DNA of 40,679 bases from a virus, in IMG/VR virus record IMGVR_UViG_3300021964_007024, positions 1-40,679 of that record; one strand, 5' to 3'. Positions 3,306 to 21,770 of this stretch are shown here, piece by piece. The notes under the pieces were generated by a model. It did not search any database, was not told the DNA's origin, and saw nothing but the letters and a program-made list of their open reading frames with translations. The position numbers and the translations under genes were made by a program. Position 1 is the stretch's first letter. The number at the start of each line of letters is the position of its first letter.

Positions 3306-3507
3306 CTTTGACTCCAAATGTTATGTGTTTATACCAAACTCGTTCATGTATGTAGTATAAAACAAACTTGATGACGAGATCGGCTGCAAAGACAGCACCT
3401 ACTGCCTTTGGTGGCAAGCCAAACATATAGGCAATCAATGCCGTAGTTGTGCTCGCAATAATTCGCCAGGTCACTGCCTTGGCTAAGTGTCTAGTTCTTG
3501 CTACCAT
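3298..3507 (-). CDS. DUF2061-like small membrane protein
   Basis: A 69-aa protein with an Arg/Lys-rich N-terminus, two predicted membrane helices (about 13-30 and 34-52) and the ending LYYIHERVWYK typical of DUF2061. It is expected in the inner membrane, function unknown. I begin at the internal ATG at 3507 (MVARTRHLAK); the longer frame adds an unlikely hydrophobic prefix. It overlaps APS kinase by 17 bases upstream and the nucleotidylyltransferase by 8 bases downstream, so the three genes form one tight operon. DUF2061 proteins are, as I recall, sometimes found beside cysC in bacteria. Confidence 0.75.
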   Translation of the reverse strand: MVARTRHLAKAVTWRIIASTTTALIAYMFGLPPKAVGAVFAADLVIKFVLYYIHERVWYKHITFGVKDV

Positions 3508-3925
3508 TTTGCAAATACTTAGAAACAACATCCATTAGTTGGACATGAGTATCATTAAACCATTCGGCTACATGATAATCGTATTGACCTTTCTCTAATG
3601 GAACATACATCTTGTTTGTATCCTCAAAACGGCCTTCCTTGATTGTATCCATCCATACCACAAAATCTGCACCGAATTCATCACGTGCTTGCGGAGTGGG
3701 TGCTACAAAATCTGCAACGCATATTTTTCCAGCCTTTACTATTCCATCTGCTAGATAACGCATACGTTGTGCTTGACGAATACGACCTTCTGGTGTAAAA
3801 TCCCAGTCATTGTATTCCTTTCTGACAGCGTCAGCATTTATCCACACTGCGCCAATTAGTTTGCTAAAGGGTTCTGCCAAAGTAGTTTTGCCGCTACCTG
3901 GCAAGCCACATATTAGTATTTTCAT
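3491..3925 (-). CDS. cysC: Adenylylsulfate (APS) kinase-like protein
   Basis: APS kinase phosphorylates APS to PAPS, the universal sulfate donor. The P-loop GLPGSGKT is at residues 7-14, the NADAVR segment at 30-35 matches the family's DGDxxR, and FVAPTPQAR (73-81) aligns with the conserved F-x-SP-x-x-x-x-R element. It is short (144 aa versus about 180-200 in bacteria). The start is the ATG at 3925, with AAAGGA upstream; an in-frame upstream start at 3958 lies across the promoter motif. First gene of the minus-strand trio. A small kinase acting on another nucleotide is the alternative. The presence of two sulfotransferases in the window supports PAPS production. Confidence 0.8.
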   Translation of the reverse strand: MKILICGLPGSGKTTLAEPFSKLIGAVWINADAVRKEYNDWDFTPEGRIRQAQRMRYLADGIVKAGKICVADFVAPTPQARDEFGADFVVWMDTIKEGRFEDTNKMYVPLEKGQYDYHVAEWFNDTHVQLMDVVSKYLQNGSKN

Positions 3926-3947
3926 GATTATTCCTTTTTCACTTCTA

Positions 3948-3955
3948 TATTTATC
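3948..3955 (-). promoter_or_regulatory. T4-like late promoter motif for the APS kinase operon
   Basis: GATAAATA on the minus strand, one base from the T4 late consensus TATAAATA. The predicted start leaves a leader of about 17 bases containing the AAAGGA ribosome site. It is divergent from the motif at 3970-3977. Confidence 0.55.
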
Positions 3956-3969
3956 CAATTAACTGGTCA

Positions 3970-3977
3970 CATAAATA
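3970..3977 (+). promoter_or_regulatory. T4-like late promoter motif placed for a leaderless mRNA
   Basis: CATAAATA on the plus strand, followed by five bases and the ATG at 3983. By T4 late-promoter spacing, transcription would begin at the A of the ATG. There is no Shine-Dalgarno sequence between motif and start codon. Confidence 0.55.
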
Positions 3978-3982
3978 TAAGC

Positions 3983-4756
3983 ATGAACACAATTGTATTA
4001 GTAACAGGTGGGTTTGATCCACTACATTCAGGACACATTGCCTATTTCAACGCAGCAAAAGATTTAGGAGACTACCTAGTTGTTGGAGTTAATTCCGACG
4101 AATGGTTAGAGCGAAAGAAAGGTAGAGCATTTATGCCTTGGAACGAACGTGCAGCCATTATCGAAGCACTAGGGTGTGTTGATCAAGTGATAGAATTTGA
4201 TGACAGTAATGATAGTGCCACAGAAGCAATTAAGTATGTTTTAAATTTTTGGAAAAGCGGTGAGAAAATAATTTTTGCTAATGGCGGCGATAGGACTGAG
4301 GGTAATATTTTAGAAATGCTTTCGGTAACCGATCCTAGACTTTCTTTCAAGTTTGGTGTAGGAGGAGAGGATAAAAAGAATTCAAGCAGTTGGATACTCA
4401 CTGAATGGAAAGCACCAAAAACAAAACGAGATTGGGGTTATTACCGTGTTATACACGAATACGATAATCATACTAAAGTGAAAGAACTTACAGTAGATTC
4501 CGGAAAGCGTTTATCAATGCAACGACATAAACAACGTTCAGAACATTGGTTTGTTGCAGAAGGAACTGCGACAGTTTATACCATCGACACACAGACTACT
4601 GATTACGAACTTTACGGAGTGTTCGAACAGCATAAAAGTTTGCATATTTCTACAAATGAATGGCACCAGTTATCAAATGAAACTGATAAACCATTAAGAG
4701 TTGTTGAAATACAATACGGTGAAAATTGTATTGAAGAGGATATCGAAAGACAATGA
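3983..4756 (+). CDS. Nucleotidylyltransferase-cupin fusion protein
   Basis: The N-terminal half (about 1-135) is a cytidylyl/adenylyltransferase of the RfaE/HldE C-domain type, with GGFDPLHSGH at 9-18 and a VGVNSDEWL strand. It would activate a phosphosugar or polyol phosphate. The C-terminal half (about 150-250) is a cupin resembling the mannose-6-phosphate isomerase tail of ManC/AlgA: RDWGYYRVI, SMQRHKQRSEHWFVAEG with likely metal-binding His/Glu, and HQLSN. A protein carrying both would pair sugar activation with isomerisation or sugar binding. The canonical ISST/ISGT motif of the transferase is not obvious. It opens the plus-strand sugar cluster and overlaps the next gene by 4 bases. Which sugar it uses is not determinable here. 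Confidence 0.8.
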   Translation: MNTIVLVTGGFDPLHSGHIAYFNAAKDLGDYLVVGVNSDEWLERKKGRAFMPWNERAAIIEALGCVDQVIEFDDSNDSATEAIKYVLNFWKSGEKIIFANGGDRTEGNILEMLSVTDPRLSFKFGVGGEDKKNSSSWILTEWKAPKTKRDWGYYRVIHEYDNHTKVKELTVDSGKRLSMQRHKQRSEHWFVAEGTATVYTIDTQTTDYELYGVFEQHKSLHISTNEWHQLSNETDKPLRVVEIQYGENCIEEDIERQ

Positions 4757-5556
4757 GAAATTGGATATTTTTAAGCAAGGATAATAAAGACCCGTATGTT
4801 AATTCATTTGCTAACGGTTGCAGTTCTCCTACCGTAGATTCTAGATATTTTAACTATGACGACTCCGAAGATCCTATTGTATTACGAGGTATCCTAAAGA
4901 AAAAAATTATGCATCGCTGTTGGGAAGACAACAGAGACTTTTACTATATTGATACAGGGTATTGGGGTAATGAACCAACACAAAGCAACCCCAATGGTTG
5001 GAAATACTGGCACAGAATTGTTAAGAACGATCTACAACATGGAAACACAATTATTGAAAGACCAAATGATAGGTTCGAAGCATTTAATAAAAAATTTAAA
5101 CCTTGGAAAAAGGATGGAAGAAAAATTCTTATTGCTGCGCCGGACGAAAAACCAATGAAGTTTTACGAAAAAGATTTAGATCAATGGTTAGCAGATACAA
5201 TTACAGAAATTAAGAAGTTTACAGATAGACCCGTAGAAGTAAGACGCAGAAATAAACTTAGATTGGATAGGTTAGTAACTGACACACTAGAACAGGCACT
5301 TAACGACGATGTATATGCTCTAGTAACGTTTAATTCAAATGCAGCCGTCGAATCTATATTTCATGGCATACCGGTATTTGCTCTAGCACCGACAAGTGCA
5401 GCGTCTCCGGTAGCATCAAATGATCTTTCCAAGATTGAAACTCCTTATTATCCTGATAGAGATAAACTTCAGGCATGGGGGAATCATTTAGCATATGGAC
5501 AATTTCATTTGAGTGAATTAAAATCAGGTAAAGCCAAAAGGATGTTGGAGGAATAA
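4753..5556 (+). CDS. Capsule-synthesis-like (KpsC/KpsS-like) protein, paralogue A
   Basis: A 267-aa predicted GT-B-type protein. It has an N-terminal block ending FYYIDTGYWGN, a WHRIVKN motif (86-92), a beta strand KILIAAP (124-130), and a C-terminal donor-type motif NSNAAVESIFHGIPVFAL (194-211), as in capsule polysaccharide synthesis proteins. The RPHP motif seen in two paralogues here is replaced by VRRR (163-166). It shares all these blocks and the ending AYGQFHLSEL with the gene at 6239. The role is inferred to be sugar or polyol-phosphate transfer, or a non-catalytic descendant. It is coupled by overlaps on both sides. Confidence 0.65.
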   Translation: MRNWIFLSKDNKDPYVNSFANGCSSPTVDSRYFNYDDSEDPIVLRGILKKKIMHRCWEDNRDFYYIDTGYWGNEPTQSNPNGWKYWHRIVKNDLQHGNTIIERPNDRFEAFNKKFKPWKKDGRKILIAAPDEKPMKFYEKDLDQWLADTITEIKKFTDRPVEVRRRNKLRLDRLVTDTLEQALNDDVYALVTFNSNAAVESIFHGIPVFALAPTSAASPVASNDLSKIETPYYPDRDKLQAWGNHLAYGQFHLSELKSGKAKRMLEE

Positions 5557-6236
5557 TGAAAGTATTTGTAGGATACGATACAAGAGAAGACATTGCATAT
5601 CAAGTATGCAAGCACAGTATTATTAGTAAACAGCCCAATGCAGATGTGCGACCATTAAAACAACAGGAACTACGAGATGCAGGATGGTATAATCGTCCTA
5701 TTGATAAACTAGCATCAACCGAATTTACATTTACACGTTTTCTTATTCCTGAGCTTATGAATTTTAAGGGTTGGGCATTGTTCATGGACAGTGATATGAT
5801 ACTTACTACTGATATTAAAGAATTGTTTGATCAGGCAGATGACAAGTATGCTGTTATGTGTGTTCAGCATGATTATAAAATAACTGAAGATACAAAAATG
5901 GATGGACAAAAACAAACAATGTATCCACGCAAAAATTGGTCGAGTGTTGTTCTTTGGAATTGCGGACATCCTAGCAATGCTGTAGTAACACAAAACTTTG
6001 TAAATGATACAAGTCTTAATGGTGCATACATGCACAGATTTAGTTGGCTTAAGGACGAAGAAATTGGAGAATTAGATCATACATGGAATTATCTAGTAGG
6101 TGTTTATAATGATATCGAAAAGCCAAAACTAATTCATTATACAGAAGGCGGACCGTGGTTTGAAAATTATAGAGATTGCGAATTTCACGGTGAATGGAAA
6201 ACAGAACTGTATAACATGATGGAAAACGAAGTATAA
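5556..6236 (+). CDS. DxD glycosyltransferase (GT-A, GT8-like)
   Basis: A 226-aa GT-A-type protein. It starts MKVFVGYDTRED, typical of small phage and bacterial GT8-like proteins, with a metal and nucleotide-sugar binding DSD at residues 78-80 (ALFMDSDMIL) and a C-terminal LIHYTEGGPW segment where the family places a conserved His. It would transfer a hexose from a nucleotide sugar; acceptor unknown. The ATG overlaps the previous TAA (TAATG). Lying between paralogues A and B, it is almost certainly co-translated with them. Confidence 0.75.
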   Translation: MKVFVGYDTREDIAYQVCKHSIISKQPNADVRPLKQQELRDAGWYNRPIDKLASTEFTFTRFLIPELMNFKGWALFMDSDMILTTDIKELFDQADDKYAVMCVQHDYKITEDTKMDGQKQTMYPRKNWSSVVLWNCGHPSNAVVTQNFVNDTSLNGAYMHRFSWLKDEEIGELDHTWNYLVGVYNDIEKPKLIHYTEGGPWFENYRDCEFHGEWKTELYNMMENEV

Positions 6237-6238
6237 TA

Positions 6239-7018
6239 ATGGCAAATAAAATTAGTTTAGAAGAATCTCTAGTTTTAGGTTCTAATGGAAAATTAACACT
6301 GGATGTTAAGGATACATCAAAGCCATTAGTTGTAAGAGGTGTAATTAAACGAGATCACGTTAACGAATGTATTAAGACTGGAAGAGATTTTTACTATATT
6401 GATACTGGTTATCTTGGTAATTTCGTAAGTCCTGGTAATCCAAATGGTAAGAAGTTATGGCATAGAGTAGTCAAGAACGAAAATCAACATTCGACTATTA
6501 GAGACGTTCCAAAAGACAGATGGGAGAAGTTGATTGAACAGGATCCTAGTCTTGCTTGGTCGGGATGGAAGAACTACAATAAAAAAATTCTATTAGTCAT
6601 GCCCAATCCTAAGGCTTGCAAATATTACGGAATCGATTATGATACTTGGGTCAAGAAGACAGAAGAAGAAATTAAAGAACACATTAATTTACCCATTGAA
6701 GTTAGGATTAAAGGATCTAGATCAGCAAGAGTAAAAGAATATACAATTTATGATGCACTAGATTCTGGAACATATGCAACAGTAACGATGAACAGCATGG
6801 CTGCTATGGAATCCATTGTGCATGGTGTTCCTGCATTTGTATCAGTTCCTTGTGCTGCTGGCCCACTAGCATCAAATGATCTAGCACAATTAAATAACCC
6901 ATTCAAGCCTGATATTAAGTTGATAGAAAAACAATGTAAGAGTTTGGCTTACGGACAATTTACACTTGACGAAATCCAAGACGGAACAGCATATGATTTA
7001 ACGGAAAGATATTCATGA
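6239..7018 (+). CDS. Capsule-synthesis-like protein, paralogue B
   Basis: A 259-aa close relative of the product of 4753-5556. Shared blocks are DFYYIDTGYLGN (50-61), LWHRVVKN (73-80), a KKILLVMP strand (115-122), NSMAAMESIVHGVP (185-198), LASNDLAQL and the ending AYGQFTLDEIQDGTA. RPHP is again absent (VRIK). Similarity over the whole length points to duplication within this phage lineage. Likely a GT-B-fold transferase or an inactive derivative. Two bases separate it from the upstream stop, and its ATGA stop overlaps the next gene. Confidence 0.65.
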   Translation: MANKISLEESLVLGSNGKLTLDVKDTSKPLVVRGVIKRDHVNECIKTGRDFYYIDTGYLGNFVSPGNPNGKKLWHRVVKNENQHSTIRDVPKDRWEKLIEQDPSLAWSGWKNYNKKILLVMPNPKACKYYGIDYDTWVKKTEEEIKEHINLPIEVRIKGSRSARVKEYTIYDALDSGTYATVTMNSMAAMESIVHGVPAFVSVPCAAGPLASNDLAQLNNPFKPDIKLIEKQCKSLAYGQFTLDEIQDGTAYDLTERYS

Positions 7019-8145
7019 AATTATTATTAAACGACAAAGAAATAGCACATTTTTTATTTGGACTACTTGATCATTATGAACCATTAAAGCGTAATGTTGA
7101 ACTACGCCACACTCATACTTATAAATTCATGAAAGATTTTCAAATGAAAGAACTACAACGTGAACAGAAGCGTGGCGACAAGTATGAACATCCTAAAATA
7201 ACAATGGATCGGGAAGATAAAGCGAAATATTTTGAAAAAATAAAGAAAACTGTCCTTAGAGATGTTGAAAATTATTATAAGGATTGTAAGAGGTATCTTG
7301 TCGAAAAGAGACAATCTGACTTTAATACTATACATAAGAATCTAGAAAATATTATAGATACCTTAGGAAAACAAAATATTATAAACTTGTATAAGACAAG
7401 TAACTATAAGAATTTTGTTAAAGGAACAGGTTTTAGTCTTGATAAAAATGCTGTGATGATGAGAAGACACGAATTTAATGATTATACTGCTGACTGTCTT
7501 ATTAGAAACACAGTTGGTAACGAGGAATTACTTGTTACAAAAATAGATAAAAACTATCCTATGTGGTTTATTGATAGTGGTTATACTAATTTTCTAGAAC
7601 CTAGAAAAACATGGCATAGATTAGTTAGAAATCATCTACATTATGGAAAGTATTTTGAAGCACCTATGACCAGATTAAATAATTTTCCAGAGTTTCCTAA
7701 GCCTTGGAGAAAGAATGGCGAAATAATTTATATTATCGAACCCGGACCATTTGCTGCTAGTATTTTTCATTGCGATCTAAAAACATGGAAATATGATGTT
7801 GCTAAGGAATTAAGAAAGTATACTGATAAGAGAATTGTGTTTAGAAAAAAAGCACCTAAAAGACAGAGACCCAGCCTTACAAAACAATTAATGAATGATG
7901 ATTATCACTGTGTTATCAGTATTAATTCTAACGCAGCAACTGAAGCAATATGGGCAGGTATTCCGGCAATTACACTAGGAACACACATTACTAATCCAGT
8001 AACCAAGAACAAACTAAGTGATATCAACGATTTGTTTTATGGAAATTTAGGTAGTTGGCTAGCAATGTTAAGTTATTCACAATTTACAAAAGAAGAACTT
8101 ATGGACGGAACAGCCAAGAAAATATTAGATCAGTATCATGTCTAA
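7015..8145 (+). CDS. Capsule-synthesis-like protein with N-terminal extension, paralogue C
   Basis: A 376-aa protein. The C-terminal part (about 180-376) repeats the family blocks: MWFIDSGY (183-190), WHRLVRN (200-206), IIYIIEPG, NSNAATEAIWAGIP (304-317) and SYSQFTKEELMDGTA. In front lies an extension of roughly 130-160 residues, strongly charged and predicted helical (Lys/Glu/Arg rich), absent from the other four paralogues and without a motif I recognise. RPHP is replaced by VFRKK. The extension could mediate oligomerisation or partner binding. It overlaps both neighbours. Confidence 0.65.
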   Translation: MKLLLNDKEIAHFLFGLLDHYEPLKRNVELRHTHTYKFMKDFQMKELQREQKRGDKYEHPKITMDREDKAKYFEKIKKTVLRDVENYYKDCKRYLVEKRQSDFNTIHKNLENIIDTLGKQNIINLYKTSNYKNFVKGTGFSLDKNAVMMRRHEFNDYTADCLIRNTVGNEELLVTKIDKNYPMWFIDSGYTNFLEPRKTWHRLVRNHLHYGKYFEAPMTRLNNFPEFPKPWRKNGEIIYIIEPGPFAASIFHCDLKTWKYDVAKELRKYTDKRIVFRKKAPKRQRPSLTKQLMNDDYHCVISINSNAATEAIWAGIPAITLGTHITNPVTKNKLSDINDLFYGNLGSWLAMLSYSQFTKEELMDGTAKKILDQYHV

Positions 8146-9058
8146 ACTATCAGCAGTAGCATACTATAACGGCATACCACCAAATAATTCTAATCCAGAA
8201 AAACCATTAATACTGGATAATTTTTTAGCAGGCGTTCAGACTTCTGGCGATGTAGCAATAGCACATAGACAGATGAATGTTCTAGATTGCGATGTGGCCT
8301 TTATACAAGGGTTTGTTCATGAACACGGCAAATCAGCACCACATTTACAATTAAGACGCAACGCCGTTGAGAACCAAAAAAACAAAGGAAAGCGTTCTTT
8401 AATTGTTGACAGCAATCTATTCTTGTATGCTGATCCAGGCAATACAAAGCGATATCTAAGATACAGTTTCGATGGAGTATTTCCAACGACAGGATTTTAT
8501 TTTGATAAAGAAGTCGATCCTACCCGCTGGCAAAAAATTAGCAAAAATCTTAACATAGAATTAAAGCCTTATAGAACACACGGTAATCACATACTGATTT
8601 GCTGTCAGAGAAACGGTGGGTGGTCAATGAAGGGTGTTCCAGTTCAACAATGGCTGGACGAAACCATTCGTAACGTTAAAGGGTTTACTGATAGACCTAT
8701 AGTGGTAAGACCACATCCTGGAGATAAAAAGTGGCGTAATTATTTAAGGATTACCCATGAGGGCGTTAGCCTAAGCACCAATCATATTAAGCAGGATCTA
8801 CAAGGTGCATGGGCAACAGTATTACATAATAGTAGTCCGGCAGTTGCAAGTTCTATTGAAGGAATTCCAGTATTTCTTACAGATCCTAATCCTGAATTTA
8901 GTCAAGCAGCAGAAGTATCAAATACAAATCTAAAAAGATTAGAAGATCCTAAGATGTTTGATAGGCAGGCTTGGATAGAAAAATTATCAATGTGTCATTG
9001 GAATTTTGATGAATTACGATCTGGCGAAGCCTGGCAGTTTTTTAGAAAGTTTATTTGA
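8138..9058 (+). CDS. Capsule-synthesis-like protein, paralogue D (RPHP retained)
   Basis: A 306-aa GT-B-type protein. The second half contains an ILICCQRNGGWSMKG strand-loop, QQWLDETI, the RPHP motif at 191-194 and NSSPAVASSIEGIPVFL (231-247), the arrangement expected of capsule polysaccharide synthesis (KpsC/KpsS-like) and related polyol-phosphate transferases. The first half differs from paralogues A-C. It ends with the family tail HWNFDELRSGEAW. With paralogue E, this is the likelier catalytically active branch. It overlaps the converging minus-strand gene at its 3' end by 8 bases. Confidence 0.65.
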   Translation: MSKLSAVAYYNGIPPNNSNPEKPLILDNFLAGVQTSGDVAIAHRQMNVLDCDVAFIQGFVHEHGKSAPHLQLRRNAVENQKNKGKRSLIVDSNLFLYADPGNTKRYLRYSFDGVFPTTGFYFDKEVDPTRWQKISKNLNIELKPYRTHGNHILICCQRNGGWSMKGVPVQQWLDETIRNVKGFTDRPIVVRPHPGDKKWRNYLRITHEGVSLSTNHIKQDLQGAWATVLHNSSPAVASSIEGIPVFLTDPNPEFSQAAEVSNTNLKRLEDPKMFDRQAWIEKLSMCHWNFDELRSGEAWQFFRKFI

Positions 9059-9899
9059 ACTGTTGCCAATAAGGTTCCGTTCTAGGAACTTTTAAATCGT
9101 CTCTCTTACTCATACCTAGTTGTTTTCTTCCACCTTTAAGATGATCTAGATATGCACCCCATTCACAATTAATTAATGGATGTCCTTCGCCAGTGCTCAT
9201 TCCCGGTCTTGGTCTAAGATCAGTTAATGATGCCGCCCAGTTGTGTTGCTTTAGAGTAGGAAAGCGAATTCTTACACCGTCAAAAACAAAACTGTCATGC
9301 CACTCAGCCATTGAGAAAATGCCTCCGCTGCCTTCGGCATCGTCGTATACACGCTGAAACTCTTTCAAAAATTCTTGTGTCTCGTGAGTTGTAAGATGCA
9401 TTGCATAAAGCCCGCACTCTGAATATTTTCCTTTTCTCCCTAAAAAACATAAGTCCTGTTTACCAGGCAACAGGCCATTTAGATTTTTTTCAGTAATAGG
9501 ACTATGACAATATGAATCGGCATCCATCCACATTAACCATTCTGTATTACATTCTTTTGCACAGGCAAATATGCTGTAAACTTTATGTGCAAATCTGATA
9601 GCATGCCATTTGAACCCTTTTCCTGAATCTTTTCTTTTGCTTCTTATAGGGTCTGCACTTACATCACCGTTTGCTTTAGGAACATCTTTCCATTTGTTTT
9701 TAAATTTTACAAGTTCGGGACTGGCCTGGTGTAAATTCTTAATTATTAAGTTGGGTGCTGTTTCAGTAACTTCACAATCTTCAGCATAGACATATAATTT
9801 AATGCTTGCAGGCCAGTTCTTTAAAAACGAATTAATCATTCGCTTGCCGTATTGTTCATAACCTGCCTTATGAAATGTTGTCACTACACTTAAATTCAT
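9051..9899 (-). CDS. Glycosyltransferase-like protein with DAD motif
   Basis: A 282-aa GT-A-like protein. The N-terminal beta strand MNLSVVTTFHKAGYEQYG opens the nucleotide-binding fold, and the metal-binding DAD lies at residues 126-128 in WLMWMDADSY. An EWHDSFVFDGV segment follows. The C-terminal EWGAYLDHLKGGRKQLG contains the late His and Gly-Arg often seen in such transferases. It probably transfers a sugar; donor and acceptor are unknown. Minus strand, second gene of a two-gene unit with 9896-10297 (ATGA overlap). Confidence 0.7.
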   Translation of the reverse strand: MNLSVVTTFHKAGYEQYGKRMINSFLKNWPASIKLYVYAEDCEVTETAPNLIIKNLHQASPELVKFKNKWKDVPKANGDVSADPIRSKRKDSGKGFKWHAIRFAHKVYSIFACAKECNTEWLMWMDADSYCHSPITEKNLNGLLPGKQDLCFLGRKGKYSECGLYAMHLTTHETQEFLKEFQRVYDDAEGSGGIFSMAEWHDSFVFDGVRIRFPTLKQHNWAASLTDLRPRPGMSTGEGHPLINCEWGAYLDHLKGGRKQLGMSKRDDLKVPRTEPYWQQFK

Positions 9900-10297
9900 T
9901 TAATTTTTCTCCACTGATGGCACCAACCTAATTTTGCTACTGCATTGTAACCCAAATCATATAACAGTTTACTTTCTGTCTTGGGTATAACTTCGTCACC
10001 TTCTATGAATATGTCAGGCCATGTGCTAGTATATAAAGGAGTTAACTTATCCATATATTTTAATTTATCTAAATCTATAAACACTCCATTAATATTTTTT
10101 AGATGAAATGTGCTTTTAATATTTTTTCTATGAATTAAATTTTTTGATTTTATTGTTACATCTGATTCATATACAAACACCGTATTAAACATCTGTAGAA
10201 GATTTTCCAGATGTCCAAATCCGTTTCCTACAACTAAACATTCAATTGGAGGATTTTTTATATTTTTGGTAATTCTTTTTTGAAATTTATCCATCAT
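9896..10297 (-). CDS. Small Rossmann-like protein of unknown function
   Basis: A 133-aa protein. A strand plus glycine loop CLVVGNGFGHLENLLQM (about 20-36) followed by VFVYESD resembles the SAM- or nucleotide-binding start of a class I methyltransferase, but later methyltransferase motifs are not evident and the protein is short. Two tandem ATGs (10297 and 10294) are possible starts. It is preceded by a late-promoter motif and coupled to the DAD glycosyltransferase. Function unknown; it may be a truncated methyltransferase or an accessory of the neighbouring transferase. Confidence 0.55.
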   Translation of the reverse strand: MMDKFQKRITKNIKNPPIECLVVGNGFGHLENLLQMFNTVFVYESDVTIKSKNLIHRKNIKSTFHLKNINGVFIDLDKLKYMDKLTPLYTSTWPDIFIEGDEVIPKTESKLLYDLGYNAVAKLGWCHQWRKIK

Positions 10298-10316
10298 AAT
10301 TCATTAAATACTACTA

Positions 10317-10324
10317 TATTTATT
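10317..10324 (-). promoter_or_regulatory. T4-like late promoter motif
   Basis: AATAAATA on the minus strand, about 20 bases upstream of the two-gene minus unit starting at 10297. It matches the core ATAAATA seen at the other motif sites in this window. Confidence 0.45.
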
Positions 10325-13851: not shown

Positions 13852-13859
13852 GAGAATAA

Positions 13860-14366
13860 ATGAGAATACTAACACTAGAAAACAAGGTGTTCGATCTAAA
13901 CGAATTACCCGAAGAAGTATCAGAAGATGCTAGATTTAGTGTATTGGATAATTCCGATGCAAAGAATCCAGATTTCTTCTTTCAACCATTGATATTTTTA
14001 GAATCATTCAATAGCCCGGCTATCTTGATGAAAATCGGAGGGAATGAAATTCAAATGCCGCTGGATTGGTCCATATTAGTTGGAGATAGTGATTGTGGAA
14101 GTGATCCTGAAGTTCTGCCGTTAACATCAATTAACGAAAGAGGATTTGAAGCATTTCAAATAAACCCTATAAAGGGTTATAGATGCGAGTTTGAACCAAT
14201 TGAAATTATCAACATCTATCAAGACGTTAAATGGTATTTTCCTAAGATGAAAAACGGACAATTACTTACGGTTCCTCTAAATGACGAATATAATCCTCCA
14301 TGTGCATACTTCGTCAAAGAGATCAGTAGACAGTCAGAAGTAGTTGAATTGGCTGCATTATTATGA
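13860..14366 (+). CDS. Conserved hypothetical protein downstream of uvsW
   Basis: A 168-aa acidic soluble protein. The pattern around MPLDWSILVGDSDCGSDPEVLPL followed by NEYNPPCAYFVKEISRQ-like text is familiar to me from marine T4-like phages, where it carries no assigned function. GGAG lies five bases before the ATG, eight bases after the uvsW stop, so it is likely expressed with uvsW. No catalytic motif is visible. Confidence 0.75.
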   Translation: MRILTLENKVFDLNELPEEVSEDARFSVLDNSDAKNPDFFFQPLIFLESFNSPAILMKIGGNEIQMPLDWSILVGDSDCGSDPEVLPLTSINERGFEAFQINPIKGYRCEFEPIEIINIYQDVKWYFPKMKNGQLLTVPLNDEYNPPCAYFVKEISRQSEVVELAALL

Positions 14367-14415
14367 TAACTACATATATTACTAATGCCAATGTGCAAGG
14401 GTTGAAAGGATGACT

Positions 14416-14766
14416 ATGAAAGCAGGAAAAATTTGGGGTCAGACGGAACTGATCCATGCTAACGGTGTATTAGAATTTCACCGTATTGAATATAAAGCAG
14501 GATACAAATGCTCAGAGCATGAGCATCAATTTAAATGGAACGGATTCTTTGTTGAATCGGGCAAGATGATTGTTCGTGTTTGGCAGGATGATCAAGGACT
14601 AGTTGATGAAACTATTCTTGAGGCAGGTGACTTTACGCAAGTAAAGCCCGGCAAGATTCACCAGTTTGAAGGTTTAGAGGACGGTGTCGCTTTTGAACTA
14701 TACTGGGCAGAATTCAACCACAATGATATTGTGCGTAGAACTGTCGGAACACAAGTTAAAAAATAA
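14416..14766 (+). CDS. Cupin-domain protein
   Basis: A 116-aa single cupin barrel. Cupin motif 1 is seen as YKCSEHEHQFKWNGFFVESG (metal-binding His-x-His and Glu), and motif 2 as GDFTQVKPGKIHQFEGLEDG with a late His. Such small cupins act as sugar epimerases or isomerases, or bind metal. I choose the ATG at 14416 because AAGGA is correctly spaced for it; the ATG at 14410 overlaps that ribosome site. It overlaps the following sulfotransferase start by one base (TAATG), tying it to the sugar-decoration run that begins here. Confidence 0.8.
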   Translation: MKAGKIWGQTELIHANGVLEFHRIEYKAGYKCSEHEHQFKWNGFFVESGKMIVRVWQDDQGLVDETILEAGDFTQVKPGKIHQFEGLEDGVAFELYWAEFNHNDIVRRTVGTQVKK

Positions 14767-15377
14767 TGGCTACACAAATAATAGAACCTTATCACTGCAC
14801 TTTTATACACATTCCTAAAACCGGAGGAAACAGTATTACAACTTGGATGCAGAATAATTTTACTGCATTTGTAACTAAAAGAAATCAACATGCGAAACTT
14901 GAAGATGCTAAACATTACTGGGGCGATTTAGGATGGACATTTTGTGTGGTTAGAAATCCTTGGGACTATGTAGTAAGTTGGTATACCTTTAAAATAGATC
15001 TTGCTAAAGTTAGGATAAAAATGGCAGAAGCAAATCCTAAACTACAAGATTCTAGAAAAGAAAAGTATAATATTTCAGTTCAAGAATCACACATAGAGAG
15101 ATTAGAAAAATTAGGATTTGATGGTTGGCTAAGACAAACTGGCCGAAGCCCGCAAATAAAATGGGCACACGGATGTGATTATATTATAAAATTAGAAAAT
15201 ATGAATGAAGATTTTAAAGAAGTTCAACAAAGATTAAATTGTTTTGAACCATTGGGACATCTAAATAAAACAAGAGAACGAAAAGATTATAAATCATACT
15301 ATACAAATCAAGAGTTAATAGATATTGTTGCAAAAAAATATAGTGATGATATAAGAGAATTTAACTATGATTTTTAA
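14766..15377 (+). CDS. Sulfotransferase-family protein 1
   Basis: A 203-aa PAPS-dependent sulfotransferase-like protein. The 5'-phosphosulfate loop is HIPKTGGNS (15-23) and the 3'-phosphate motif is VVRNPWDYVVSWY (61-73), with Arg63 and Ser71 as expected. The C-terminal YTNQELIDIVAKKYSDDI is the typical family ending. It would transfer sulfate from PAPS to a carbohydrate hydroxyl. PAPS could come from the APS kinase at 3491-3925. It lies in the polycistronic run between a cupin and a sugar dehydrogenase, so a sugar or glycan acceptor is likely. Confidence 0.85.
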   Translation: MATQIIEPYHCTFIHIPKTGGNSITTWMQNNFTAFVTKRNQHAKLEDAKHYWGDLGWTFCVVRNPWDYVVSWYTFKIDLAKVRIKMAEANPKLQDSRKEKYNISVQESHIERLEKLGFDGWLRQTGRSPQIKWAHGCDYIIKLENMNEDFKEVQQRLNCFEPLGHLNKTRERKDYKSYYTNQELIDIVAKKYSDDIREFNYDF

Positions 15378-15389
15378 AAAGGAGACAAG

Positions 15390-16169
15390 ATGAAAGTAGG
15401 AATAATCGGGTATGGGTGGATAGGAAAGGCTACACAAAAATTATTTCCAGATGCACAAATTTACGATAAGTTTATTGAAGGATATACTAAACCCTTAAAA
15501 GATTGTGACATTGCATTTTTAGCAGTTCCGACTCCTTGGAATCAAGGCGACGGCCTTGATTGTTCGGCAGTTGAGGACGCTATCTCTACTTGCGGTTGTA
15601 ATTTTATTGTAATACGTTCAGCAACACAGCCCGGGTTTGCTGATGAAATGGCAAAAAAATATAATAAACGTATAGTAGTTCAACCTGAATATCTAGGCGA
15701 AACACCCAATCATCCTTTCCTACAAATGGATGCTAGACAATTTATGATCATCGGTGGTGATCCTGAAGACAGACGTAAAGTGATTGAGTGCTATCAACAG
15801 GCTTATAATGCCAATATAACAATTAGACAGGTATCAAGATACGAAGCAGAAATAATTAAATTTACAGAAAATCGTGCTATCTTTTACAAGGTTATGCAAT
15901 GCCAAGAGCTATATGATGCATGCGAGGCTGCAGGGGTAGATTACTATACTGTTAGAGATGCGGTATATGGTGACGATCCAAGACAGAACTTATGGTTTAG
16001 TTTTGTATTTCCTAAAAACAGAGGAGCCAATAGTAAGTGTATACCTAAGGACATTTATGGTTGGTGTGCATGGGCAGAAAGTGTAGGCATTGATCCTATG
16101 GCTACAAAATCGTTGTTAGAATATAACAAAACATTACTAGAAAAGAATAACAATGTCGAAGAAAAATAA
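15390..16169 (+). CDS. Short UDP-glucose/GDP-mannose dehydrogenase-like protein
   Basis: NAD-dependent sugar-nucleotide 6-dehydrogenases make uronic acids. Visible here: the Rossmann loop GIIGYGWIG (4-12), AEIIKFTEN (153-161), which matches AELxKxxxN, and the catalytic SKCIPKD (215-221) with Cys217, Lys220 and Asp221. The protein is only 259 aa, versus about 390-450 usually. It ends about 40 residues after the catalytic cysteine, so the C-terminal UDP-sugar-binding domain is missing. It may use a different substrate, need a partner, or be a reduced phage version. A strong AAGGAG precedes the ATG. It overlaps the methyltransferase gene by 17 bases. Confidence 0.8.
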   Translation: MKVGIIGYGWIGKATQKLFPDAQIYDKFIEGYTKPLKDCDIAFLAVPTPWNQGDGLDCSAVEDAISTCGCNFIVIRSATQPGFADEMAKKYNKRIVVQPEYLGETPNHPFLQMDARQFMIIGGDPEDRRKVIECYQQAYNANITIRQVSRYEAEIIKFTENRAIFYKVMQCQELYDACEAAGVDYYTVRDAVYGDDPRQNLWFSFVFPKNRGANSKCIPKDIYGWCAWAESVGIDPMATKSLLEYNKTLLEKNNNVEEK

Positions 16170-17010
16170 AGAACCTACAAAATTTATTTCTTTAGAAGAA
16201 TTTAAAACTCACTTGACTAATCTAACTGCTGATGGAATTCATGTAAGAGATGACGGCGAATTTAGTTTTGGATTTAACTGGTATGATTACGTTCAAAATA
16301 GAATGGATGAAGACATTATATCAATGCATATGACTAATTTAAAATCTCTTTATGACGAAATTGGCATAAGCCTACAAGGTAAAACAGTTTTTGATATTGG
16401 TTGCGGTAGTGGTTTATCATCTCTATCATTTGCTAGATTAGGATGTAATAAAGTTACAAGTATGGACATAGATAAGCATTCAGTTATGGCCACACAATAC
16501 ACAAAGAATAACTTTTGGAAGGGTAATATAGAATGGAATGTCTATACACATTCTATATTAAACCCTCCGATGCCTGTTGAGCCCGAATCTCAAGATATTG
16601 TTTATTCCTGGGGTGTGTTACATCACACAGGAGATATGTGGAATGCAATACGTAACTCAATAGACTGTGTAAAACCTGGCGGGTTATTTCATGTAGCTCT
16701 TTATAGATCAGGAACTAAATTTCCTAAATCACTAGATGAAAAATATGCATTTAAATTTGGAAATAAAGAAGAAAAAATAAAAATGCTATATGATAGAGCA
16801 GGGCAAAAACTATTTTCTGTTAAAAAAGGCAGAGGAATGAATAAATTCCACGATGCATTAGACTGGTTAGGTGGTCTTCCGTATGATGTAGTTGATCCTG
16901 AGGTATTATTCGGTTGGCTAGAAAGTAAATATAATTTTAAAGTTTTGTATTTCCAAGATCGTAATGGCGGCGGAAATTTTACAGCCATATTACAGAAAGT
17001 TAAATCATGA
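16153..17010 (+). CDS. Class I SAM-dependent methyltransferase
   Basis: A 285-aa methyltransferase. Motif I is VFDIGCGSGLSS (79-90), the acidic end of strand 2 is SMDIDKHS, the post-motif region is DIVYSWGVLHHTGD (Ubie/UbiG-like), and KPGGLFHVALY marks strand 5. It likely O-methylates a sugar or small acceptor given its position between a sugar dehydrogenase and a glycosyltransferase. The overlaps on both sides (17 and 4 bases) indicate coupled translation. The DNA here is extremely AT-rich. Confidence 0.85.
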   Translation: MSKKNKEPTKFISLEEFKTHLTNLTADGIHVRDDGEFSFGFNWYDYVQNRMDEDIISMHMTNLKSLYDEIGISLQGKTVFDIGCGSGLSSLSFARLGCNKVTSMDIDKHSVMATQYTKNNFWKGNIEWNVYTHSILNPPMPVEPESQDIVYSWGVLHHTGDMWNAIRNSIDCVKPGGLFHVALYRSGTKFPKSLDEKYAFKFGNKEEKIKMLYDRAGQKLFSVKKGRGMNKFHDALDWLGGLPYDVVDPEVLFGWLESKYNFKVLYFQDRNGGGNFTAILQKVKS

Positions 17011-17714
17011 ATATTGTAACCTTTAAATGGAAGAAACCAGATACAGGTTATAAATTAAAAACACAAGTTTCTTACGGAAGCAAGCATGTTAATGTATTGT
17101 ATCAATCAATTAAACGAAATACAACTTTAGATTTTAATTTTTATTGCATCACAGATGATCCTAGCGGGCTGAATCCTGATATTAAATATATTCCTTTATG
17201 GAATAAATGTATAAACTTAGGTGGCTGTTACAATAGATTATTTGTGTTTAGTAAGGAAATGAGAAAAATTATAGGAAAAAGATTTTTGTCTATCGATTTA
17301 GATGTTGTGATAACTGGAAATATAGATAAACTATTGTTAAGAAATGAAGATTTTATAATCAATGAATACAGGTCCAAAAATAATTTCCAACAAAAATATA
17401 ATGGCGGAATGTTTATGATGAATTCGGGTTGCAGGGATCAGGTTTGGAACGAATTTGATTATCATAATTCACCTAAAATAATTGAACAACAAAAAAATAA
17501 AAGAATATTAACAGGTTCTGATCAAGCATGGATACAATATGTATTAGGCGACAACGAACATTTATTTACTAGTGAAGAAGACGGAGTTTATGATTATAAT
17601 CACTTAGGACCTGTTCTTCCTAACAACTGTAGAATAGTATTTTTTCCTGGAAAAAATGATCCAGAAATTGAAATGAATAAATTACCCTGGATAAAGGAAC
17701 ACTGGAGAGAATAA
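17007..17714 (+). CDS. Glycosyltransferase-like protein with DLD motif
   Basis: A 235-aa GT-A-like protein. The N-terminal VTFKWKK...HVNVLYQSIKRN begins the nucleotide-binding fold, the metal-binding DLD lies at 97-99 (FLSIDLDVVITG), and the acceptor-side loop NGGMFMMNSG and GSDQAWIQYVLG are typical of small hexosyltransferases in bacterial glycan clusters. It ends HWRE. Start ATG overlaps the previous TGA and its own stop meets the next ATG. Donor and acceptor are unknown. Confidence 0.75.
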   Translation: MNIVTFKWKKPDTGYKLKTQVSYGSKHVNVLYQSIKRNTTLDFNFYCITDDPSGLNPDIKYIPLWNKCINLGGCYNRLFVFSKEMRKIIGKRFLSIDLDVVITGNIDKLLLRNEDFIINEYRSKNNFQQKYNGGMFMMNSGCRDQVWNEFDYHNSPKIIEQQKNKRILTGSDQAWIQYVLGDNEHLFTSEEDGVYDYNHLGPVLPNNCRIVFFPGKNDPEIEMNKLPWIKEHWRE

Positions 17715-18394
17715 TGGATTTGAATATTATAAAAGAGATTATTGCACCTAACACAATGTGTTCACAAGAACAAGTAATTGAGTTAGATGAATTATTAGAA
17801 GAAGTTTTTGAAAATAAAATTGACGGAGACATAGTTGAGTGCGGAACATGGCGAGGAGGCCTTGCCTGTCTAATAGTGCAACATATTATTAAAAATATCA
17901 AAGCAGACAAAAAAGTTTATATATACGATACTTTTGAAGGCATGCCAGAACCAGAACCAGAAGATGTAGGTGTTCAAGGTGAAAAGGCAATAGATACATT
18001 TAATAGGTGGAAGAGAAAAGATGGAACAAGCTCAAAATGGTGTAGTTCAGGTATTGAATTTGTAGAGTCTAATTTAAATAGAATTACAGAGAATTACAAA
18101 ATCTATACAAATCTTATTAAAGGGAAAGTAGAAGATACTCTGTTAATTAAGGAAAATTTACCTAAAAAAATCTGTTTAATGAGATTAGATACTGATTGGT
18201 ATCGATCTACTAAAATAGAATTAGAAACTTTTTACCCGATGTTATCCACAGGCGGCATAGTTATAATTGATGATTATAACCATTGGCTAGGGCAACAAAA
18301 AGCGGTAAACGAATTTTTAGACGGCCTTGAATGGGAATCGTTTGAAACAGTTATAGGTGCGAATGCCGGACTTATAATAAGAAAACTTAAATAG
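17714..18394 (+). CDS. TylF/MycF-type sugar O-methyltransferase
   Basis: A 226-aa member of the macrocin O-methyltransferase family, which methylates sugar hydroxyls in natural products and surface glycans. Motif I-like VECGTWRGG is at 41-49 and YIYDTFEGMPEP follows. The family signature is LMRLDTDWYRSTKIELE, then GGIVIIDDYNHWLGQQKAV with the paired aspartates that bind Mg. The full length is present. It is the strongest hint that the cluster builds a methylated sugar. Coupled by overlap to the upstream glycosyltransferase. Confidence 0.87.
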   Translation: MDLNIIKEIIAPNTMCSQEQVIELDELLEEVFENKIDGDIVECGTWRGGLACLIVQHIIKNIKADKKVYIYDTFEGMPEPEPEDVGVQGEKAIDTFNRWKRKDGTSSKWCSSGIEFVESNLNRITENYKIYTNLIKGKVEDTLLIKENLPKKICLMRLDTDWYRSTKIELETFYPMLSTGGIVIIDDYNHWLGQQKAVNEFLDGLEWESFETVIGANAGLIIRKLK

Positions 18395-18403
18395 GAAAAT
18401 AGT

Positions 18404-18979
18404 ATGGCTAAAAAAGTAAAATATACAGAAGCACTGGATCCAAATAATCCTCATCTAGGAGGAAACTTTTTAGAGTTAAATCCTAGCACACATAGTCCAG
18501 CAGCATGGAATTATGTAATTGAAAAATACAATATTAAATCAGTTTTAGATGTTGGATCAGGAACTGGATATGCTGCTAAATGGTTTAGTGATCAGGGTAT
18601 TAACGCAACGGCAATTGACGGTCTTGAATACAATGTAAAAAATGCTGTTTATCCTACTCAACAGGTAGATTTAACAGAAAGTTCTTTTACTAAGAACGTA
18701 GATCTTGTTAATTGTGTAGAAGTTGTAGAGCACATTGAGGAGAAATATCTAAATAATCTTCTAACAACTTTATGTTGTGGAAAGTATCTGATGATGACCC
18801 ATGGACTACCAGGTCAGCCAGGACACCATCATGTGAACTGCCAACCAAAGGAATATTGGATCGATCATCTAAGAGCAAGAGGCTTTGAGGAGATACCAGA
18901 AGATTCTGCTAGATTAAAATCACTGGCGAAAAAAGCCCATCATATCAAAGATAGCGTAATGTTGTTCAAAAAGGTATAA
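18404..18979 (+). CDS. Small class I SAM-dependent methyltransferase
   Basis: A 191-aa methyltransferase with motif I LDVGSGTGYAAKW (48-60), an acidic strand-2 loop ATAIDG, and NCVEVVEHIEEKY (UbiG/UbiE-like post I). A HGLPGQPGHHHVNCQ segment near the end is rich in His and Gly and may contribute to substrate or metal binding. Third methyltransferase in the cluster. A GGAAAA ribosome-like site precedes the ATG. Substrate unknown. Confidence 0.8.
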   Translation: MAKKVKYTEALDPNNPHLGGNFLELNPSTHSPAAWNYVIEKYNIKSVLDVGSGTGYAAKWFSDQGINATAIDGLEYNVKNAVYPTQQVDLTESSFTKNVDLVNCVEVVEHIEEKYLNNLLTTLCCGKYLMMTHGLPGQPGHHHVNCQPKEYWIDHLRARGFEEIPEDSARLKSLAKKAHHIKDSVMLFKKV

Positions 18980-18983
18980 AAAA

Positions 18984-20318
18984 GTGTGCGGGTTTAGTGT
19001 ATCAACGGTAACAAATTTAGAATCATCGAACGCTTTCTGCCAACGCAGAGGACCTGACCTTACAAATACTAAAATTGTTAATGGCATACAGTTTTTACAT
19101 AATCTACTGCATATAACGGGAGAAGTAACTCCACAACCATTAATTAAGGATGACATTGTTTGTGTGTTCAATGGAGAGATTTATAACTATACTTCTTTTG
19201 GTTCATATAAAAGCGATGGTGAATGCATTATTGATTTATATGAAAAAACAGGAGAAGAATTTGTAAAAAAATTAGATGGGGAATTTGCACTATGCCTAAT
19301 TGATTTTAAACAAGAAAAAATTATTATTTCTGTTGATACATTTAGTTGTAAACCCCTTTGGTATGAATTTAATCAGAATGGATTCTGCATAGGATCATAT
19401 AATAGTCAATTAACCGGATTAGGATTCAATAAAGGACAAAAATTAAAATCAAATACAACACTAATTTTTAATTCTAGAAATTTTTCTCAGATAAGATCGT
19501 ATGAAAATAGAACTTTTGATCTTAGACAGCACAAAACAACATTTAACGACTGGCTTAGTGCATTTACCAAGAGCATTCAGAAAAGAACTGCAAATACAAC
19601 TCAAGGAATGTTTGTAGGATTAAGTTCGGGGTATGATAGTGGAGCAATTGCGTGTGAATTAGAAAAACAAAATGTATCTTTCAAAGCATATTCTATTATA
19701 AACAATGAAAACCCCATGGTCATGAATGAAAGATTAAAAAAGATTAGTAACACTGAAGCATTTACTATGACCGAACAAGAGTTTGCAACTTGGAAAAATG
19801 AATTGAATAATAATTGTGAGAATTTCATGTATGATGACGGATTTAGGAACTACGATATTAAAAAAGATCAAGCATCGATGGGGTTATCGGCAATTTGTAA
19901 CCGTGCTAATTCCGAAAATCGAAGAATATATTTTAGCGGCCAAGGCGCAGACGAAATTATTAGTGACTATGGTTTTAGAGGTAAGAAAATTTACAAACAC
20001 AGTGGCTTTGGAGGGTTATATCCGGAAAAATTAGAAGGTTTTTTTCCGTGGCATAGTTTTTATGATGGAACACAAATACAATATCTAAACAAAGAAGAAT
20101 ATGTTGCTGGACATTTTGGTATAGAAACAAGATATCCATTTTTAGATAACGATCTTGTCCAAGAATTTTTATGGTTAACTCCTGAACTTAAAAATAGCAA
20201 ATATAAGAGTTGCTTGGATGCGTATCTAACAAGAAACAATTTTCCTTTTGAGCCTTCGGAGAAGAGAGGATTCAATGTAGTAGCAAAAGGAAAGAAAATG
20301 AAGAAAGCAAAGGGATGA
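18984..20318 (+). CDS. Asparagine-synthase-like glutamine amidotransferase
   Basis: A class II glutamine amidotransferase joined to an ATP-pyrophosphatase synthase domain, 444 aa (bacterial AsnB is about 550). Cys2 is the nucleophile after a GTG start (fMet-Cys-Gly). RRGPD is at 21-25 and NGEIYNY at 63-69. The synthase P-loop is SSGYDSG (214-220) instead of the usual SGGLDS. FSGQGADEI is at 317-325. In O-antigen clusters such enzymes amidate uronic acids, which would fit the nearby sugar dehydrogenase; true asparagine production is the alternative. No clear Shine-Dalgarno precedes the GTG, which lies four bases after the previous stop. Confidence 0.85.
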   Translation: MCGFSVSTVTNLESSNAFCQRRGPDLTNTKIVNGIQFLHNLLHITGEVTPQPLIKDDIVCVFNGEIYNYTSFGSYKSDGECIIDLYEKTGEEFVKKLDGEFALCLIDFKQEKIIISVDTFSCKPLWYEFNQNGFCIGSYNSQLTGLGFNKGQKLKSNTTLIFNSRNFSQIRSYENRTFDLRQHKTTFNDWLSAFTKSIQKRTANTTQGMFVGLSSGYDSGAIACELEKQNVSFKAYSIINNENPMVMNERLKKISNTEAFTMTEQEFATWKNELNNNCENFMYDDGFRNYDIKKDQASMGLSAICNRANSENRRIYFSGQGADEIISDYGFRGKKIYKHSGFGGLYPEKLEGFFPWHSFYDGTQIQYLNKEEYVAGHFGIETRYPFLDNDLVQEFLWLTPELKNSKYKSCLDAYLTRNNFPFEPSEKRGFNVVAKGKKMKKAKG

Positions 20319-20944
20319 GTTCAATAACTGTGGTAATAGCAGGCGATAGAAACTTCGAGGAATATGTCTCGAAAAGTGTTGATTATGCACGTCGTGTTGG
20401 ATATGAGCCAAAAATTTATGATCTCGGTGGTTTAGGATACGGAAAGCCATTCAAAGGAAGAGTAAGTCCACAAGTAGGAGCAAAAATACCTGCCAAGCCT
20501 GGAATTATTCTCGATGCAATAAGCGAAATTAACGAAGGTGATTATATTGCATGGGTAGATGCTGATGCACTGATAGAAAAACGATTTGATGAAATTATGG
20601 AAGACTATGATTTAGGTGTTACCGTAAGACAACCTAAACAGAAAGAAAATAGTTTGCCAATAAATGCAGGAATTGTGTTTGCAAGAAAAACTCCGCAAGC
20701 AATTTCATTTATTCAAGAATGGATTAAACTGTGCGAAAGCGGAGTTAGTGATCAACAAGAATTAAACAAACTATGCCAAGTAACAACAAAGAACACAAAT
20801 AGTTTAGTTGAAAGAAATGGAGTAAGGATACGTGTTTTTCCTTGCGCAATATACAATAATGTATATTTTGCCAAAAAAGAAACACCGAATGCAAAAATTA
20901 AACACTATAAGAGTAAATTAAGACATCTTTGGCCTAAGGATTAA
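20315..20944 (+). CDS. Glycosyltransferase-like (nucleotide-diphospho-sugar transferase) protein
   Basis: A 209-aa GT-A-like protein with ITVVIAGDRNFEEY at the N-terminus, DAD at 82-84 in YIAWVDADALI, the loop PINAGIVFARKT and a C-terminal IKHYKSKLRHLWP providing the late His. It resembles nucleotide-diphospho-sugar transferases of plant and bacterial type. Acceptor unknown. ATG overlaps the previous TGA. Confidence 0.7.
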   Translation: MSSITVVIAGDRNFEEYVSKSVDYARRVGYEPKIYDLGGLGYGKPFKGRVSPQVGAKIPAKPGIILDAISEINEGDYIAWVDADALIEKRFDEIMEDYDLGVTVRQPKQKENSLPINAGIVFARKTPQAISFIQEWIKLCESGVSDQQELNKLCQVTTKNTNSLVERNGVRIRVFPCAIYNNVYFAKKETPNAKIKHYKSKLRHLWPKD

Positions 20945-20945
20945 T

Positions 20946-21770
20946 ATGAAAATACTAGTAACAGGAAGCAACGGATACATAGGAAAGCATTTATGTAAGA
21001 TGCTCGACGGAAAACACGAAGTTTACGGATTAGATCTACATGAATCAAGTCATACTACTCATGTTAGCAAGTATTATCAAATAAACATTGACGAAAATTT
21101 TCAACTTTTTGAAGATTTTGATTGTGTCATACACCTTGCGGCTCTAGTAAGAGTTGGTGAAAGTGTTCAATACCCAACAAAGTATTATACAACTAATATT
21201 GTCGGAACTAGAAATGTATTAAATGGTATTTCATTCAAAAATTTTGTATTCGGATCAACTGGTGCAGCAGCAACGCCAACATCACCATATGCAATATCAA
21301 AATTAAAAGCAGAAGATGAAGTTAAAAACATATGCGAAGAAAAAACTGTTCCGTATACAATGTTTAGATTTTATAATGTTACCGGAACCGACGGATTTCC
21401 AGCAACCAACCCGGACGGACTGTTCTTTAAATTAACAGAAGCCATAGAAACTGGTGAATTTAATATATACGGCGGCGATTATGACACTCCAGACGGAACG
21501 CCAATAAGAGATTATGTTCATGTAAATGAAATTTGTCAAGCACTATCTGATGCTATCGATCATCCATCTAATTCCATCGAAAATTTAGGTCACGGTAAAG
21601 GTTACAGTGTTAAAGAAATTGTAAAAACGTTTCAAGAAGTTAATAATGTCCAATTTAAGATTAATATTATGGATCGAAGAGAAGGAGATCCGCCCAAAAC
21701 TATATTAGATTCAGTTTCACCATACATGTCAAACATGTATTCATTGGAAGACTATCTAAAAATTAATTGA
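20946..21770 (+). CDS. NAD-dependent sugar epimerase/dehydratase (GalE-like)
   Basis: Short-chain dehydrogenase-type sugar-nucleotide epimerase, 274 aa (GalE is about 340). The NAD loop is VTGSNGYIG (5-13), HLAALVRVGESV is the GalE-like strand 4, the catalytic site is Ser104 with Tyr115 and Lys119 (YAISK), and TPIRDYVHVNE is the GalE signature. It probably interconverts UDP-glucose and UDP-galactose or their uronic or amino forms. It ends the sugar cluster; a consensus promoter for the next unit overlaps its stop codon. Confidence 0.87.
   Translation: MKILVTGSNGYIGKHLCKMLDGKHEVYGLDLHESSHTTHVSKYYQINIDENFQLFEDFDCVIHLAALVRVGESVQYPTKYYTTNIVGTRNVLNGISFKNFVFGSTGAAATPTSPYAISKLKAEDEVKNICEEKTVPYTMFRFYNVTGTDGFPATNPDGLFFKLTEAIETGEFNIYGGDYDTPDGTPIRDYVHVNEICQALSDAIDHPSNSIENLGHGKGYSVKEIVKTFQEVNNVQFKINIMDRREGDPPKTILDSVSPYMSNMYSLEDYLKIN

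Follow-up and report, generated by a model that had tools for sequence, protein, structure and literature searches.

Lipopolysaccharide (LPS)-type gene clusters are a known kind of phage system, described in P-SSM2 (PMC2984593) and in a survey of jumbo phages (PMC7824862), and glycosyltransferases are among the core genes of the 'moraphages' (PMC12619734). Such clusters are usually seen as sporadic cargo. Here we analyzed IMG/VR virus record IMGVR_UViG_3300021964_007024 (the window, meaning the whole stretch of 40,679 bases), in which two islands of sugar-related genes lie on either side of uvsW. The core of this set, consisting of a nucleotidylyltransferase-cupin fusion, a GT8-type and a GT-A glycosyltransferase, a family of GT-B glycosyltransferases, and a separate cupin (14410), is a position-locked, all-or-none block that characterizes two large clades among the jumbo-phage relatives. 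Megablast against named phages gave no near match to the window. Since UvsX and UvsW are nearest to those of Sinorhizobium phage Phosso and Agrobacterium phage Atu_ph07 (67-68% and 54-57%), whose genomes both exceed 460 kb, the window is most likely, by this sequence kinship, a piece of a jumbo myovirus genome, that is, of a very large aquatic phage.

To place the core among relatives, 160 loci anchored on UvsX and UvsW were fetched and their gene order was read. Forty-five of these span uvsY to uvsW: 31 have the core, 2 have the nucleotidylyltransferase-cupin alone, and 12, including Phosso and Vibrio phage 2.275.O, have no core gene at all. When mapped on a tree of 74 uvsW sequences, the distribution of the core needs four gains or losses, compared with 13 when labels are shuffled, and the core is universal in two clades of 23 and 32 members. 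The cupin on the far side of uvsW accompanies it, occurring in 31/38 core loci and in 0/11 core-less loci (Fisher P 1.1e-6, an optimistic value, as related phages are counted as independent). Distant phages resemble each other more in this cupin than in the backbone gene uvsW (fourfold-site identity of 0.65-0.68 versus 0.29-0.37 in L149, L150, and L142), which suggests that the cupin has been exchanged laterally. Where synonymous divergence (dS) could be estimated, the core genes have dN/dS values of 0.05-0.19, consistent with purifying selection, although dS was often saturated.

The main transferases of the core are five proteins (C, E, F, G, and J; Table 1) that give almost no Pfam signal. 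They are united by profile comparison, in which alignments of C, G, and J match one another at E values of 6.8e-27 and 4.8e-41 and F matches C, with E joined to the family through blastp and synteny. When the structural model of J was compared with the PDB using Foldseek, the top 27 matches were all WbbB, KpsC, or KrkA (E 1.7e-7 to 6.4e-6), with best E values of 1.7e-7, 8.5e-7, and 2.7e-6 for the three, respectively; a PDB search by sequence with alignments A1, A2, and A4 returned nothing useful. The five proteins that an earlier note on this DNA had called capsule-like are thus a single family, with a fold in J like that of 3-deoxy-D-manno-octulosonic acid (Kdo) transferases. Two motifs mark the retaining beta-Kdo transferases: QxxxD, whose Asp serves as nucleophile, and (K/R)xHP, the site of cytidine monophosphate (CMP) binding (PMC12887879, PMC10148158). 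The (K/R)xHP motif is present in 70/70 G and 63/63 J sequences from the fetched loci, preceded by a Gln at a distance of 34-37 residues (38 in KrkA). Bacterial matches to the family came from four contigs only, all from metagenome-assembled genomes and possibly viral, so that the family is nearly phage-only in the searches made; a bacterial source was rejected for the same reason.

Further indications of the donor came from the second slot of the relatives, downstream of uvsW, where 12-13 loci have a kdsA and a kdsB-like gene. The KdsA matches exceed NCBIfam cut-offs (scores of 337 versus 242 and 327 versus 314). Among loci in which this slot is covered, eight core loci have both genes, four contigs cut upstream have one or both, and core-less loci have none. 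The presence of kdsA and kdsB beside the core supports a Kdo-type donor independently of the motif, Kdo transfer itself being a prediction. A kdsA, a kdsB, and a GT8 homologue also occur together in cyanophage S-SCSM2R, and kdsA and kdsB have been reported as viral auxiliary genes (PMC10653327). Together, these features suggest an acidic, CMP-sugar-derived glycan. As a separate observation, a kdsA homologue in the uncultured 462-kb phage LR756500.1 lies about 2 kb from a sulfotransferase homologue (131124-134601).

In contrast to the core, the content of the slots varies even among close relatives, and by this measure the second island is exchangeable cargo, partly mobile between slots. L092 shares with the window, in the same slot, a UDP-sugar dehydrogenase, two methyltransferases, an asparagine-synthase-type amidotransferase (AsnB), a DxD transferase, and an epimerase. 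Parts of the window's second island stand instead in the first slot, between uvsY and the core, in L042 (methyltransferase-AsnB-glycosyltransferase) and in L068 (AsnB-epimerase-glycosyltransferase), which indicates that the cassette travels. The second slot of ten relatives also has a PF02592 transporter of the vitamin-uptake or queuosine-precursor type, beside kdsA/kdsB or other cargo (e.g., L149:12339-12980).

In the window, 18 sugar-related genes between 3983 and 21770 are supported by profile searches and family comparison. The earlier note had counted roughly twenty, interrupted only by the uvsW block; the set is real and does flank uvsW, but the block at 11223-14366 also holds backbone genes K and M, and the kinase at 3491-3958 cannot be shown to belong to the set. 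The note's division into activating, transferring, and decorating genes agrees with Pfam, PHROG, NCBIfam, profile comparison, and Foldseek. The four DxD glycosyltransferases hold up (the GT8 enzyme, the GT-A enzyme H, and two in the second island), and Pfam bears out the sulfotransferase, three methyltransferases, and amidotransferase. The models of H and J both hit glycosyltransferase folds, with that of H nearest to alpha-1,3-galactosyltransferases, LARGE1, and BoGT6a. Overlaps of 1-17 bases do occur, at 12/21 junctions; since H and its small neighbor (9051-10297) run on the minus strand, the set is not a single operon. The idea of one assembled pathway fits the first island, whose core is retained together and gained or lost as a block at one site, but not the second, whose genes turn over piecemeal and partly move between slots. 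As in phage-type glycan clusters, there are several glycosyltransferase families (GT8, GT-A, five GT-B, and two more DxD enzymes) and activating enzymes (epimerase/dehydratase, cupin isomerase, and HIGH nucleotidylyltransferase). Polymorphism among related viruses is found in the cargo slots, though not in the core.

The reading that we favor, with a probability of roughly 0.45, is a soluble two-layer phage glycan pathway that displays an acidic chain on a virion protein. What the data show is which genes are present, how their families are related, where the core sits, its gain or loss as a block, and the motifs conserved; the donor, the sequence of reactions, the acceptor, and the benefit are inferred. 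The core enzymes would assemble a short sugar chain during infection. For at least G and J, the donor would probably be an acidic sugar activated with CMP, such as Kdo or another ulosonic acid like it; the host would make this sugar or, in some relatives, the phage's own KdsA and KdsB would. The second island would then act as a swappable cassette altering the outer chemistry, in this phage by adding sulfate and methyl groups and possibly by amidating a uronic acid. The likeliest acceptor would be a virion protein, so that the phage would show a variable acidic glycan. A virion protein is favored because, in Caulobacter phages CcrColossus, CcrPW, and CcrBL9, two GT-B-family genes and a GT8 homologue follow the tail genes directly and precede the lysozyme/endolysin. 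A Gram-negative host would provide CMP-Kdo.

Several points weigh against this reading. (i) Both the window and Pelagibacter phage Mosig have their sets in replication or nucleotide regions, not next to tail genes. (ii) TM-scores of the J model to Kdo transferases are just 0.41-0.52. (iii) The nucleophilic Asp of QxxxD is never present (0/133 G and J sequences), the residue at Q+4 being Gly or Ser in G and mostly Ser in J, and the HP motif is mostly missing from the other paralogues (C 1/55, E 0/17, F 2/15). Because they fail the test for this nucleophile, G and J are not assigned to GT99, GT107, or GT140; their motifs suggest CMP-sugar transferases that work without the known nucleophile. (iv) Neither kdsA nor kdsB is present in the window, and neither was seen in its own clade, whose larger fragments, L092 (195 kb), L087 (132 kb), and L097 (138 kb), gave no KdsB-family match. 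(v) The fold argues equally for a surface glycan, since the acceptors of KpsC and WbbB are lipid- or O-antigen-linked. The bolder proposal, that phage-specific CMP-ulosonic-acid transferases with a Kdo-transferase fold but no covalent nucleophile make a Kdo-type glycan on jumbo-phage virions, with decorations swapped as in a serotype switch, is rather unlikely.

The host surface comes close behind the virion protein as an acceptor, and a change of that surface is a tentative possibility in its own right. On this view, the enzymes would act at the inner membrane, extending or capping precursors of host LPS or capsule; the altered surface of the infected cell would then keep competing phages, or released progeny on debris, from binding. 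The nearest folds are capsule and O-antigen Kdo transferases, heptose- and Kdo-type sugars belong to the LPS core, and this interpretation is the accepted one for LPS clusters in cyanophages (PMC2984593, PMC7824862), with LPS genes in 76% of one marine jumbo-phage group (PMC9123017). However, the island genes of the window include no transporter, flippase, polymerase, membrane anchor, or lipid-linked initiating enzyme, hydropathy gave no transmembrane segment in any island protein of the window, and the Caulobacter homologues lie in a tail-lysis region. For P-SSM2, the portion of the report at hand does not demonstrate a host-surface product either (PMC2984593).

It is improbable that the slots are merely hot spots for genes without a common product. 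Three slots do have variable genes, including a peroxiredoxin, the vitamin-uptake-type transporter, and 2-oxoglutarate (2OG) oxygenases, and the cupin was apparently exchanged laterally; the core, in contrast, is present or absent as a block with conserved order, its cupin is linked to it, and the AsnB cassette recurs. DNA hypermodification, in which an oligosaccharide would be built on hydroxymethylated pyrimidines of the phage genome, has very little probability. The set does lie among recombination and replication genes, near a NodU-like carbamoyltransferase, and a 2024 study by Pyle and colleagues (cited in PMC12619734), going by its title, reportedly has viral glycosyltransferases hypermodifying DNA. 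It is disfavored because the largest core-bearing record (357 kb, not certified complete) has one Thymidylat_synt gene, from the family to which hydroxymethylases also belong, but of the ThyA type (LGVPFNIAS), and no hydroxymethylase. NodU does not track the core (9/11 versus 5/8, P 0.6), and a TET/JBP search gave no match, a weak result as its control gave none either. Thus, of the three products proposed in the earlier note, DNA modification is disfavored, whereas a virion glycan and a host-surface change are both viable. A small sugar-derived metabolite, as proposed for one cyanophage cluster (PMC7824862), is just as improbable: the amidotransferase, sulfotransferase, methyltransferases, and nearby carbamoyltransferase look like tailoring sets, but the core is mainly glycosyltransferases, as chain building would need.

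Several neighboring genes were considered and set aside. K was rejected as a sugar gene, since it is retained by phages without any. The kinase and the HxGH nucleotidylyltransferase (2895..3958) match two halves of phrog_10255 and are probably cargo outside the glycan core. This pair occurs both with and without a sulfotransferase, in another slot near a zinc-finger gene in L127, L145, L146, and L159, and beside a NADAR gene in Stenotrophomonas phage Bhz60. The kinase was therefore rejected as the supplier of 3'-phosphoadenosine 5'-phosphosulfate (PAPS) for the sulfotransferase: among the fetched loci the two co-occur only in the window and L145, with unrelated neighbors elsewhere. The NodU/TobZ-type carbamoyltransferase, found in core-less relatives too, is by its distribution an independent feature and was rejected as a pathway member. 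The backbone runs gp32, uvsX, uvsY, K, uvsW, M, small genes, a structural gene, primase, the NodU-like gene, and DnaB helicase. Across 34000-40679, the G+C content goes up from about 0.34 to 0.43-0.50 and coding moves to the other strand, with an endolysin-like gene on the minus strand at 37702-38403. A DUF6445 protein with weak 2OG-Fe dioxygenase similarity (31789-32460, minus strand) has no counterpart among the fetched loci. In Atu_ph07, gp55-gp66 was rejected as a related array, the GT-B profiles giving one chance-level match only. Its gp55-gp63 (L083:1319-8593) are about nine tandem paralogues, mostly of about 255 amino acids, with recurring YRGM-like motifs; they are putative ADP-ribosyltransferases by an eye-made resemblance and are unrelated to the sugar genes.

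Table 1. Features of the window, with coordinates, strand, and supporting matches or remarks (SAM, S-adenosylmethionine; APS, adenosine 5'-phosphosulfate)
Feature	Coordinates	Strand	Support or remark
Upstream backbone (gp32, uvsX, small ORF, uvsY)	72..2898	+	PHROG matches 1.9e-64, 9.8e-72, 1.3e-14; order kept in relatives without sugar genes
uvsY	2440-2898	+	Supported sugar genes lie between it and 21770
HxGH nucleotidylyltransferase, kinase partner	2895-3317	-	
P-loop kinase, APS-kinase-like	3491-3958	-	PDB matches are APS kinases
Core: nucleotidylyltransferase-cupin fusion (heptose-1-phosphate adenylyltransferase-like + phosphomannose-isomerase-like cupin)	3983..4756	+	CTP_transf_like 2.8e-15, MannoseP_isomer 2.3e-22; NCBIfam matches all under equivalog cut-offs
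Core: GT-B paralogue C, without HP motif	4753..5556	+	Alignment A2, motif count
Core: GT8-type glycosyltransferase, DxD	5556..6236	+	PF01501 1.5e-7; phage homologues
GT-B paralogue E, mostly confined to window's own clade	6239..7018	+	Synteny, blastp
GT-B paralogue F, N-terminal extension	7015..8145	+	hhalign to A2, E 1.1e-34
Core: GT-B paralogue G	8138..9058	+	Invariant Q157 and R191-x-H193-P194
Core: GT-A glycosyltransferase H, DxD	9051..9899	-	AlphaFold2 pLDDT 92; strand flips between relatives
Small companion of H, weak methyltransferase-like hint	9896..10297	-	PF01564 E 0.043; co-occurs with E/F in relatives
Core: GT-B paralogue J, Kdo-transferase-like fold	10334..11191	+	Invariant Q129 and R164-x-H166-P167; pLDDT 93
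Backbone block K, uvsW, M between two islands	11223..14366	+	uvsW = phrog_16 5e-79; retained in island-less phages
K (no assigned function)	11223-12410	+	K profile matches Phosso at 1.1e-16
M, backbone gene	13860-14366	+	
Cupin, distributed together with core	14410..14766	+	Other side of uvsW
PAPS-type sulfotransferase	14766..15377	+	IPKTGG and RNPWDYVVSWY motifs; PF03567 8.3e-8, phrog_3347 3.9e-14
Short UDP-glucose/GDP-mannose dehydrogenase	15390..16169	+	PF00984 5.4e-10, PF03721 4.9e-9; Cys of KCIPKD retained, C-terminal domain missing
SAM methyltransferase	16153..17010	+	PF08241 9.8e-13
DxD glycosyltransferase	17007..17714	+	phrog_1962 2.1e-17
TylF-type sugar O-methyltransferase	17714..18394	+	PF05711 2.3e-31
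SAM methyltransferase	18404..18979	+	PF13489 4.5e-8
AsnB-type glutamine amidotransferase	18984..20318	+	Cys2 and SSGYDS retained; PF13537 1.7e-18, PF00733 6.3e-12
DxD glycosyltransferase	20315..20944	+	PF03407 6.1e-8
GalE-like NAD-dependent epimerase	20946..21770	+	PF01370 1.5e-33
NodU/TobZ-type carbamoyltransferase	27175-28647		Between primase and DnaB

If the acceptor is the virion, the locus would provide a phage glycan with interchangeable outer chemistry; if it is the host surface, it would be a dedicated superinfection-blocking pathway. In either case, the altered QxxxD raises a question of enzymology, namely how a Kdo-transferase fold would work without its nucleophile. As in WbbB (GT99), KpsC (GT107), and KrkA (GT140), the model of J has a modified GT-B fold, and both G and J have the (K/R)xHP motif together with the QxxxD Gln, similarly spaced. 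Unlike in those enzymes, the Asp is swapped mainly for Ser (J) or Gly (G), sequence similarity is undetectable, and C, E, and F mostly do without the HP motif.

As in the LPS-type cluster of P-SSM2 (PMC2984593) and the capsular polysaccharide modification systems of jumbo phages (PMC7824862), the locus combines in compact form a nucleotidylyltransferase, cupin, epimerase, several glycosyltransferase families, and methyltransferases, with variable tailoring. Unlike those clusters, the core is fixed in the interval from uvsY to uvsW and has persisted in two large clades, and its main transferase family is almost phage-only in the searches made. Pelagibacter phage Mosig EXVC030M has homologues of H, GT8, C, and E with a sulfotransferase in one run (gp185-gp189), but in another lineage and at another site, with 27-46% identity and with no nucleotidylyltransferase-cupin seen in that run. 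The Caulobacter phages likewise have two GT-B-family genes followed by a GT8 homologue; theirs adjoin tail genes, and the H homologue and cupin were not seen there. The broad kind of system, phage LPS-like clusters, is therefore already known, and what appears to be new, so far as the searches go, is a core that is either complete or absent at one fixed site, a GT-B family almost confined to phages, with the CMP motif kept and the nucleophile lost, and the exchangeable cassette that accompanies them.

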